Shown in pieces: positions 57,175 through 59,186 of a stretch of DNA of 64,000 nt. This DNA is from Cupriavidus sp. 2SB (GTDB lineage: Bacteria > Pseudomonadota > Gammaproteobacteria > Burkholderiales > Burkholderiaceae). A program made the translations under genes and the position numbers. The notes below the pieces were generated by a model. It made no database searches and had not been told where the DNA came from. It saw only the letters and a list, made by a program, of their open reading frames with translations. The DNA is taken from the NCBI RefSeq assembly GCF_005503625.1, contig NZ_SCMX01000009.1:62001-126000 (forward strand), read 5' to 3'. Every line of letters begins with the position of its first letter. The stretch's first letter is position 1.

Positions 57175-57520
57175 CGCAAAGCAGGCCAGACAATCGCTGC
57201 TTGTTCCCGCAAGGGGCAAGGGGAGGAAAGTCCGGACTCCACAGGGCAGGGTGTTGGCTAACAGCCATCCACGGTAACGTGCGGAATAGGGCCACAGAGA
57301 CGAGTCTTGCCGCTGGCTTCGGTCGGCGGGAAGGGTGAAACGCGGTAACCTCCACCTGGAGCAATCCCAAATAGGCAGACGTTGAGGCGGCCCGCTGAGT
57401 CTGCGGGTAGGGAGCTGGAACCGTCCGGTAACGGCCGGTCTAGAGGAATGGTTGTCACATGCAGAGTGCCCGCAAGGGCGGTCGGCATGCACAGAATCCG
57501 GCTTATCGGCCTGCTTTGCT
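57175..57520 (+). ncRNA. rnpB: RNase P RNA component, bacterial type A
   Basis: Catalytic RNA that matures tRNA 5' ends with the RnpA protein. The ends pair as helix P1 (AAGCAGGCC at 57179-57187 with GGCCTGCTT at 57508-57516). The conserved core GGGGAGGAAAGTCCGGACTCC is split at 57219-57240, and the AGAGGAATGG and CAGAATCCGGCTTATCGG 3' core blocks are present. Length is about 345 nt, as in betaproteobacteria. A terminator follows 12 bp later. Confidence 0.96.
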
Positions 57521-57531
57521 TCGGATTTGAG

Positions 57532-57589: not shown

Positions 57590-58012
57590 TCAGCCTTCGA
57601 CGATCTCGGTGGTATGCGTGATCTCGGCAGTCTTCGCCAGCATGATCGATGCCGAGCAGTACTTCTCGTGCGACAGCTCGATGGCACGCTCCACCTTGGC
57701 GGGGTCCAGGCCCTTGCCGGTTACCGTGAAGTGGAAGTTGATCTTCGTGAACACCTTCGGATCGGTATCGGCGCGCTCGGCTTCCAGCTTGACCGAGCAG
57801 CCGCGAATATCCTGGCGGCCACGCTTCAGGATCAGCACCACGTCATAGGCGGTGCAGCCGCCAGTGCCCAGCAGCACCATCTCCATTGGACGCGGCGCCA
57901 GGTTGTTGCCGCCACCGTCCGGTGCGCCGTCCATGGCCACCAGATGGCCGCTGCCGGTCTGGGCGATGAAGCTCATGCCCTCCGGGCCCGACCATGTCAC
58001 TTTGCATTCCAT
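57590..58012 (-). CDS. OsmC family protein (YhfA-like)
   Basis: 140-residue OsmC/Ohr-fold protein. Cys53 (in GTGGCTAYD) and Cys119 (in HEKYCSAS) are the conserved redox pair, so peroxide or hydroperoxide reduction is plausible; the YhfA branch has no confirmed substrate. The core includes NLAPRPMEMVLLG. It starts at ATG 58012 and is convergent to rnpB, with 22 bp between its stop and that terminator. Confidence 0.92.
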   Translation of the reverse strand: MECKVTWSGPEGMSFIAQTGSGHLVAMDGAPDGGGNNLAPRPMEMVLLGTGGCTAYDVVLILKRGRQDIRGCSVKLEAERADTDPKVFTKINFHFTVTGKGLDPAKVERAIELSHEKYCSASIMLAKTAEITHTTEIVEG

Positions 58013-58170
58013 TTTTTTCGTTCCTCGATTCGTTGATGTCCTGATTTCGCTCGCACGCAGGGCATCTCATGACTTGCATTTCGCGAGTATAGGCTAACTC
58101 CGCGAGCGCCTTCCCCTACGGGATTTCCCCTAAAAATCTGAGGGTTTCCTCTAGTGTGGTGTCGATCAAC

Positions 58171-58220
58171 GACTCACTTTGGATACGTAAGTTATTGATT
58201 TTTAGGTAATGACTCACTTT
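58171..58220. repeat. Direct repeat in an AT-rich intergenic island
   Basis: GACTCACTTT occurs at 58171-58180 and again at 58211-58220, exactly 40 bp apart. The second copy continues into ATGAGTG, making a short inverted element. The surrounding 58130-58300 stretch is much richer in A/T than the rest of the window. Confidence 0.7.
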
Positions 58221-58278
58221 ATGAGTGGCGTACTATTTATTCCATATTATGATATTGGATTTCGTAGTGTAAATTTTC

Positions 58279-58306
58279 TTGCCTTGGAGGGGGCCGTATG
58301 TATAAT
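58279..58306 (+). promoter_or_regulatory. Sigma-70 promoter of the candidate small RNA
   Basis: A perfect TATAAT at 58301-58306 and TTGCCT at 58279-58284, spacing 16 bp. The predicted start is near 58313. A GGAGG-preceded ATG (58298) opens a 33-codon frame ending at 58399, but the start codon would lie upstream of this transcript. Confidence 0.65.
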
Positions 58307-58312
58307 CCAATC

Positions 58313-58484
58313 CATCGAACGACGGCGCACGAAGAGCGCGCAGAGTGCGAAAGCGAAAGCAGGTTCCGACCCGGATCGCTTCCCGCACCACCGCAATGAC
58401 CGGCCCCGTCGATCGCCCGGTGTCTCCTCCACCCTCCTCCTTTGGTGGATTCAAACCCAAGTCCGATAGACTTGGGTTTTTTTT
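58313..58484 (+). ncRNA. Candidate small regulatory RNA with anti-Shine-Dalgarno loop
   Basis: About 170 nt from the predicted start to a strong terminator. Near its 3' end a TCCACC / GGTGGA stem (58428-58433, 58444-58449) presents the 10-nt loop CTCCTCCTTT, complementary to AAGGAGGAG, the Shine-Dalgarno sequence. A GA-rich stretch (58325-58365) precedes it. No annotated coding gene overlaps on either strand. It lies between osmC and rplM. This resembles sRNAs with C-rich anti-SD loops; a family match could not be checked. The alternative is a 33-residue peptide (MYNPIHRTTAHEER start). Confidence 0.6.
58453..58484 (+). terminator. Rho-independent terminator of the candidate small RNA
   Basis: Perfect 11-bp stem AAACCCAAGTC / GACTTGGGTTT, 5-nt loop, then an eight-T tract. 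No coding gene ends nearby on the plus strand, so it must belong to an unannotated transcript. Confidence 0.92.
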
Positions 58485-58580
58485 CGCCCTTTGCAAGGGC
58501 CGCCACGGTGCGCCAGTGAACAACTCGGCGCTTGCCATGCTGTCAGCCGGCAAAGACTTGACGAAATCCGGCAACTTTGC

Positions 58581-58610
58581 TTGTGCGATGGCGCGGTAGG
58601 CGCTTATAAT
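58581..58610 (+). promoter_or_regulatory. Promoter of rplM-rpsI
   Basis: TATAAT at 58605-58610 with TTGTGC at 58581-58586, spacing 18 bp. It predicts a start near 58617. Confidence 0.7.
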
Positions 58611-58757: not shown

Positions 58758-59186
58758 ATGAAGACCTTTTCCGCCAAGCCTGCAGAGGTAAAGCGCGACT
58801 GGTACGTGATTGACGCGACGGACAAAGTCCTCGGCCGTGTTGCCAGCGAAGTGGCACGCCGACTGCGCGGCAAGCACAAGCCAGAATTTACTCCTCACGT
58901 CGACACCGGTGATTTCATCATCATCGTCAATGCAGCCAAACTGCGCGTGACGGGTACCAAAGAACAGGACAAGAAGTACTATCGCCATTCGGGTTACCCG
59001 GGCGGTATCTACGAAACGACGTTCGGCAAGATGCAGCAGCGTTTCCCGGGCCGTGCCCTGGAAAAGGCTGTCAAGGGCATGCTGCCGAAGGGTCCGCTGG
59101 GCTACGCGATGATCAAGAAGCTGAAGGTTTACGCCGAAGCCGAGCATCCGCATAGCGCACAGCAGCCCAAGGTGCTGGAAATCTAA
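58758..59186 (+). CDS. rplM: 50S ribosomal protein L13
   Basis: 142-residue large-subunit protein. [20 protein letters not shown] starts the protein; [26 protein letters not shown] and [11 protein letters not shown] are L13 signatures. AGGAAAAATC precedes the ATG. rpsI follows after 11 bp, the universal bacterial pairing. Expression is expected to be high and growth-rate dependent. Confidence 0.99.

Follow-up and report, generated by a model that had tools for sequence, protein, structure and literature searches.

The small RNAs ncS03, ncS05, ncS27, and ncS62 of Burkholderia cenocepacia J2315 are captured by a single covariance model, RF02278 (Betaproteobacteria toxic small RNA), and have in common two hairpins and stretches rich in C. 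One of them, ncS27, measures 92 nt, also occurs as a shorter, processed form, and has BCAL3349 as its divergent neighbor. Overexpression of ncS27 is reported to slow growth and its silencing to speed growth, and its level to rise in biofilm (9.7-fold), under starvation (3.9-fold), and in glucose medium (4.3-fold) (PMC5688073); according to a review, it affects phenylalanine and tyrosine catabolism as well as sugar transport and utilization (PMC10987360). Family members are also reported to inhibit the growth of Escherichia coli when carried on a cloning vector (PMC4603805, PMC5688073). In Bordetella pertussis, the RNA S17 is described as cut by RNase E from 190 nt (S17L) to 67 nt (S17S) and as Hfq-dependent; it directly represses BP2158 by pairing, and 92 genes were raised in its absence (PMC11722255). 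Here, we characterize an RNA of the same architecture in a 64,000-nt stretch of the Cupriavidus sp. 2SB genome (hereafter the window), where it lies between a divergent osmC-like gene and rplM, the gene of ribosomal protein L13. The RNA itself is known: it belongs to the catalogued RF02278 family and is at most a further member of a family already studied. We consider it highly probable that it is a trans-acting posttranscriptional regulator of this double-hairpin family, probably the counterpart of NcS27. The osmC-rplM copy would match ncS27 in having a processed form and a divergent neighbor; ncS27 itself is flanked by BCAL3348a and BCAL3349.

The core of the window RNA scores 66.6 bits with the RF02278 model, against a gathering score of 50 (E = 3.2e-11 in 64 kb). 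The original prediction, based on the letters of the window alone, had named this Rfam family and left undecided whether it was the same; it is. The other Rfam matches, to anti-hemB, NmsRb, ncS16, and ylbH, were all below cut-off. NmsRb (RF02877) and anti-hemB (RF02837) share with the window RNA a terminator hairpin and C-rich stretches complementary to the Shine-Dalgarno (SD) sequence, but the window RNA is neither of them (26.3 bits for a cut-off of 52 and 27.1 bits for a cut-off of 49.5, respectively). The predicted fold confirms the 6-bp stem with its loop, followed by an 11-bp stem and a run of eight T, as first read from the sequence. The minimum free energy of the core is −23.6 kcal/mol (z = −4.58), and none of 200 shuffled sequences folded equally well. 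The terminator coincides with no gene end: the osmC-like gene runs leftward from 58012, and rplM starts only at 58758. In an alignment of 25 members of the RNA family, 98.9% of 350 cells were paired, and the covariation score was 0.405 versus 0.137 ± 0.016 in shuffles. Both-sided changes affected 6 of the 14 pairs, of which one belongs to hairpin 1 and five to hairpin 2; two of the five covariation measures (both-sided pair changes and further pair types) were not above the shuffles. Hairpin 1 of the window RNA is of the CACC-loop-GGTG type; the alignment includes 14 family paralogues from other genera, and all of these are of the CATG type. The RF02278 score, the conservation in the host genus, and the covariation together set the feature above chance.

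RF02278 matches (E ≤ 0.001) were found in all 60 host-genus genomes, with 2 to 11 matches per genome. In 58 of these genomes they pass the cut-off, the other two genomes being 54% and 78% complete. Among the 30 best host-genus loci, 29 lie between osmC and rplM; the remaining one, which has osmC, is at a contig end. The family was also detected in 107 of 120 host-family genomes (104 above cut-off) and in 188 of 300 host-order genomes (114 above cut-off). With a model built from the 25 family members, we searched the 1.3 kb upstream of rplM in 100 host-family genomes outside the genus (E < 1e-3) and in 60 host-order genomes of 32 other families (E < 1e-6). The first set represents 100 of the 109 such genomes with rplM; the nine left out are seven with a split or partial rplM or with a genome of 0.2–0.5 Mb, and G077 and G086. 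The second was picked among the matches listed, with at most four loci per family, rplM being present in 291 of the 300 genomes. The RNA stands upstream of rplM in 87 of the 100 and 31 of the 60 genomes, in all 118 cases on the rplM strand, at a core-to-rplM distance of 71–1,019 nt (median 210, with 11 of the 118 above 600). As 16 of the 32 other families sampled have at least one such copy, the rplM-linked copy is probably ancestral. It is the sole RF02278 match in ten genomes of about 2 Mb belonging to one genus (g12).

Two C-rich stretches of the core, UGUCUCCUCCACC and the loop CUCCUCCUUU, are complementary to ribosome-binding sites, which supports the initial view of a small RNA with anti-SD stretches. 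That view gave the key role to the loop and expected it to be unchanged in relatives. Compensatory stem changes and a conserved core and promoter were indeed found; the invariant anti-SD element is located at the 5' end, and the loop is not invariant. UGUCUCCUCCA is exact in 113 of 119 rplM-linked cores (the 118 above and the window) and, from its second base, in 118 of them. In 17 of the 119, the loop region contains neither CCTCC nor CTCCT, and these include all ten g12 genomes, most of which read CCAAACATA there. As judged from these alignments, the loop is less constrained than the 5' stretch. The g12 loci (L165–L167, L169, L171, L173–L176, and L178) have thus lost the anti-SD loop and kept the 5' stretch, and constitute a natural loop mutant; in L178, one base of the 5' stretch is changed. 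As predicted for the window RNA, S17 combines a long sigma-70 transcript, a short core, and a terminator; it differs in its place, which is between BP3151 and coq7 and away from rplM, and in a level that is reported to depend on BvgA~P. The B. pertussis workers describe a 27-nt 5' part of S17 (S17S positions 2–28) as entirely conserved across many Betaproteobacteria, and UGUCUCCUCCA lies in the part that they call Site 1 (PMC11722255).

The promoter TTGCCT-16-TATAAT of the original prediction is present (table 1), and its TTGC and TATAAT are kept in the host-genus alignment of 30 gaps, that is, 29 relatives and the window (L036, whose contig ends before rplM, was omitted). In this alignment, the −35/−10 region, the 20 bases from 58313, and a block at 58341–58357 rise above a more variable background, and 58406–58485 is conserved as well, except for part of the terminator stem. 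By a simple scan, promoter-like sites numbered 3 versus 0.9 expected in 1.8 kb and terminator-like sites 2 versus 2.2, which is weak evidence alone. The transcription start can be placed more firmly by homology. Cappable-seq mapped 5'-triphosphate ends in Cupriavidus metallidurans CH34, and the start ranked second among the 5,763 kept, with TTGCAACGGC from −35 and TGTATAATTC from −15, is assigned there to rplM (Rmet_6415) (PMC9045368, Table 2). This two-block pattern occurs in only one of the 60 host-genus genomes (G030, C3:436793-436822), which is presumably that of CH34. In it, the −35 and −10 blocks begin 144 and 124 nt before an RNA core that also scores 66.6 bits with the Rfam model, and the T8 lies 56 nt past the core start (feature span C3:436793-437001, or L242:1501-1709). 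The rplM start (L242:1995) is 459 nt beyond the implied transcription start (L242:1536). Because the terminator of the RNA stands between this start and rplM, the second-ranked CH34 start most simply belongs to the small RNA. The window transcript is accordingly expected by homology to start at 58314 (±5 nt), in agreement with the start near 58313 first proposed, and its product would be about 171 nt long with a core of about 64 nt.

The publication of this start as that of rplM, and the linkage to rplM on the same strand in most host-family genomes sampled and 31 of the 60 others, would also fit a 5' leader of the rplM-rpsI operon, starting at 58314 and ending in an attenuator that sets ribosomal protein synthesis. 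We regard this as very unlikely. The distance between core and rplM is highly variable; every host-genus genome has at least two matches, so that the core functions at other places too; in B. cenocepacia, the relatives are reported as separate short RNAs (PMC5688073); and a conserved TATAAT at 58605–58610 suggests that rplM has a promoter of its own.

The leader of the RNA measures 76–118 nt in 30 host-genus transcripts (L014, without [TG]GTATAAT, gave none); the predicted length of about 107 nt in the window compares with about 30 nt in the B. cenocepacia relatives. Its conserved ends pair with each other in the predicted fold of the window RNA. Among the 59 loci with a recognizable promoter, the distance from the −10 box to the core depends on the lineage and ranges from 6 to about 125 nt. 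As the start would fall at the core itself in some lineages, the leader looks dispensable and the core appears to be the functional unit. Another reading of the locus is a small protein gene, encoded by the 33-codon or another leader frame and followed by an ordinary terminator. Such frames exist: besides the 33-codon frame, a frame that begins with GTG at 58345 stays open for 84 codons through the core and terminator, and S17L likewise is reported to have a 32-codon frame (PMC11722255). Leader lengths, however, differ by non-multiples of three around a constant core. In 25 of the 30 host-genus transcripts, no frame of at least 12 codons stops within leader and core (frames running past the core were not counted); of the other five, four have a common GTG frame of 37–40 codons and the last an ATG frame of 24 codons. 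The 33-codon frame begins with an ATG within the −10 box; the original prediction had already placed this ATG upstream of the start, and the peptide falls. A protein-coding origin therefore appears extremely improbable.

Table 1. Coordinates of the small RNA, its parts, and its neighbors in the window
Feature	Position	Strand	Remarks
Double-hairpin core	58421..58485	+	RF02278, model positions 1-64 of 64
Invariant UGUCUCCUCCA	58421..58431	+	First 7 nt unpaired in predicted fold
Hairpin 1	58428..58449	+	6-bp stem UCCACC/GGUGGA (58428-58433 with 58444-58449); loop CUCCUCCUUU, 58434-58443
Hairpin 2 and T-run, intrinsic terminator	58453..58484	+	11-bp stem, 58453-58463 with 58469-58479; T8, 58477-58484
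5' leader of primary transcript	58314..58420	+	About 107 nt; start by homology with CH34 start (±5 nt)
Sigma-70 promoter of small RNA	58279..58306	+	−35 TTGCCT, 58279-58284; 16-bp spacer; −10 TATAAT, 58301-58306
Conserved block upstream of −35, ATTTCGTAGTGTAAAT	58258..58273		Two positions changed relative to ATTTCGCAxTGCAAAT of many host-genus members
33-codon frame, judged no gene	58298..58399	+	Start codon overlaps −10 box
osmC-like gene, divergent neighbor	57590..58012	−	PF02566, 68.3 bits
rplM (ribosomal protein L13), downstream neighbor	58758..59186	+	

Other features of the locus can be noted. Between osmC and the RNA promoter, the stretches 58133–58152 and 58185–58206 are also conserved in the host genus, and ACTCACTTT is present twice, at 58172 and 58212; all are possible regulator sites. 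An RNase P RNA (class A, 250.7 bits) is encoded at 57178–57521 on the forward strand, and one is likewise found near the small RNA in G030 (L242) and at two loci of other genera (L173 and L090).

The data suggest the following course for the regulator that we propose. The sigma-70 promoter, at whose counterpart in C. metallidurans a start has been mapped, would direct an RNA of about 171 nt that stops at its own terminator. RNase E would probably remove the leader, as shown for S17, and leave the core. UGUCUCCUCCA, together with the C-rich loop where it is kept, would pair with SD sequences and thereby block the translation of many mRNAs, probably with the involvement of Hfq, as for S17. When growth is limited, the outcome would be that carbon compounds and amino acids are taken up and degraded more slowly, as reported for NcS27; the RNA would thus act as a brake. 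Many promoters of the RNA family look PhaR-controlled (see below), which would tie the brake to stores of polyhydroxybutyrate (PHB); the window copy is not detectably among them. An alternative, suggested by the word "toxic" in the family name, is a nonselective inhibitor of translation, which would compete with 16S rRNA for SD sequences and have no chosen targets. The complementarity of the core to the SD consensus and the toxicity of cloned family members in E. coli (PMC4603805) agree with it, but NcS27 is reported to have slowed growth only on certain substrates (PMC10987360), and we consider nonselective inhibition very unlikely.

Several observations weigh against the regulator that we propose. 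S17S is described as not similarly toxic in E. coli, with only a modest effect in stationary phase (PMC11722255). The B. cenocepacia small RNAs were reported as not detected by tagRNA-seq in C. metallidurans; the 35 candidates of that study left out starts located up to 300 nt upstream of a coding sequence or upstream of a 150-nt open reading frame, so the start of the RNA could have been filed under another class (PMC7563307). Finally, the hypothesis of an extended SD sequence, in which GGAGACA before ATG, the complement of UGUCUCC, is overused in the presence of the RNA, was rejected as a general rule. GGAGACA occurs at 240 of the 4166 GGAG-N5-9-ATG sites of the source genome (5.8%). Among 51 families represented by one genome each, the medians were 1.86% with a strong RNA hit (n = 20), 1.31% with a weak one (n = 14), and 1.54% with none (n = 17; strong hit versus none, p = 0.46).

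PhaR is a sensor of PHB. In RNA promoters of other families, the −35 position is occupied by TTCTTGC-RTY-GCACAA, an element that fits both the PhaR palindrome reported for Ralstonia eutropha, YTKNTGCRNYGCANMAR (PMC12849132), and the core reported for Sinorhizobium meliloti (PMC12542648). TTGC-N3-GCA followed 15–19 nt further by TAnnnT was found upstream of 59 of 149 rplM-linked cores, for 0.4 expected in shuffles; TTGC-N3-GCA is absent from the 48 published CH34 housekeeping −35 ten-mers, though 16 of these begin with TTGC. Within 200 nt upstream, TGCRNYGCA precedes 72 of 118 cores (61%). Elsewhere in these loci, it occurs in 21 of 433 windows (4.8%), and at 42 loci lacking the RNA in 1.6% of 250 windows. 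Chance alone often produces the looser core YGCRNYGCR (136 of the 433 background windows, 31%), and the argument is therefore carried by the stricter motif and by the comparison with genomes lacking PhaR. Paralogues display the site too. We scored 56 paralogue loci against the 17-mer palindrome, for which 25 of 1103 background windows reach 15 or more (2.3%) and 130 reach 14 or more (11.8%). Outside the host genus, in the host family, 24 of 31 loci score at least 15 of 17 within 120 nt and all 31 at least 14. One paralogue type of the host genus scores 17 of 17 at all ten loci, including L002 of the source genome, and only two of the remaining 15 loci reach 15. In genus g24 (L079–L087), a palindrome like TACGAAATGCGATTTCGTA is found ahead of the −35 element.

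PhaR (PF07879) is encoded by 203 of the 300 host-order genomes. We predicted, before reading the sequences, that RNA-bearing genomes without PhaR would lack the palindrome. YGCRNYGCR lies within 200 nt of the RNA at 25 of 28 rplM-linked loci with PhaR and at 1 of the 23 PhaR-less loci, which come from 22 genomes (Fisher, 3e-10; this and the other PhaR statistics count loci related by descent as they stand). The sole PhaR-less locus with the motif comes from a genome that is 85% complete. The same contrast holds for TGCRNYGCA (23 of 28 versus 1 of 23) and for a 17-mer score of at least 15 (23 of 28 versus 2 of 23). Judged by hand per family, the palindrome is present in 12 of 15 families with PhaR versus 1 of 9 without (p = 0.002), the misses being f5 (two of four loci), f27 (none of one), and L078. 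This last locus (G452), where PhaR is present and the RNA is outside the rplM set, has no PhaR-type site and was not counted in the 28. Nine families supplied the PhaR-less loci; among the 20 added ones, that of G201 is at rplM and ten are away from it. The rplM-linked RNA itself goes with PhaR, which accompanies 28 of 31 loci with the RNA versus 16 of 29 without (p = 0.003).

Within the genus, a YGCRNYGCR-type core occurs within 300 nt in 23 of 31 promoters, and the block ATTTCGCAxTGCAAAT of many members corresponds to a PhaR-type palindrome core. The window departs from this pattern: its promoter has no PhaR-type site above chance, the best core match in 58100–58330 being 7 of 9, a value equaled by all 277 windows of 230 nt. 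The comparison with PhaR-less genomes is less clear-cut than its counts. Among the 20 added PhaR-less loci, 17 share TATTAGANNAT, and only three have TTGC with TAnnnT 15–19 nt on; these promoters thus differ from the others in further respects besides the missing palindrome, and a single altered promoter may be their common ancestor. One control palindrome, CGTRNYACG, was raised without explanation in the 149 upstream stretches (10 versus 1.8 expected). The other controls gave 4 (GTCRNYGAC; 1.3 expected), 2 (CTGRNYCAG; 1.5), and 1 (ACGRNYCGT; 1.8). As an observation apart, TATTAGANNAT (L284–L303) is mostly followed by CTAAT or a similar sequence; the inverted repeat so formed could be bound by a different regulator.

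The distribution of these sites suggests that many RF02278-family members are switched by PhaR. We lean slightly toward a broader interpretation, in which the RF02278 RNAs would form the posttranscriptional arm of PhaR: when storage granules form, PhaR would leave its sites, and several of the RNAs would be made and block the translation of carbon and amino acid uptake genes. Some RNAs would be produced from PhaR-type promoters of their own and at least one from the 3' untranslated region (3' UTR) of phaP. A parallel is provided by MmgR (alpha-r8) of S. meliloti, whose promoter is reported to have a PhaR/AniA site (PMC12542648, PMC8401924). MmgR belongs to another bacterial class and is not an RF02278 member, no alpha-r8 model being among the five Rfam matches up to E = 5, and the arm proposed here would have arisen independently of it. 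In the open-licence literature searched, we found no paper linking PhaR with the RF02278 family or with any betaproteobacterial small RNA. Three B. cenocepacia copies are reported to share a "common upstream motif" (PMC5688073), which may be the same as the PhaR-type palindrome.

The source genome has a PhaR gene match (C44:49818-49997) and a single Phasin_2 match (105 bits), in the gene at L005:240-818. As expected of a PhaR target, this phasin gene, phaP, is preceded by TGCRNYGCA at two places (L005:21 and 77). An RF02278-like RNA of 35.1 bits, below cut-off, lies 131 nt past its stop codon (L005:950-1023, G000:C52). With no PhaR-type site within 200 nt, this copy appears to derive from the phaP 3' UTR. 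A second one (L004:1501-1568, 38.6 bits) lies 23 nt after a permease-like gene, and its counterpart L270 follows a Xan_ur_permease gene. The copies after permease genes (L004, L270–L276, and L279) also have no PhaR-type site within 200 nt and are probably derived from 3' UTRs.

Although the window RNA adds a member to a known family, its comparison with relatives bears on the biology of the group. In a model metal-resistant bacterium, the simplest reading of the second-ranked transcription start, which had been published as a ribosomal-protein promoter, is that it marks the promoter of this small RNA. The control of double-hairpin RNA accumulation was called unknown by the discoverers of these RNAs (PMC5688073). 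PhaR is a named and testable candidate for this control, possibly a new one. If true, the PhaR arm would constitute a feedback from stored carbon to carbon intake in Betaproteobacteria.
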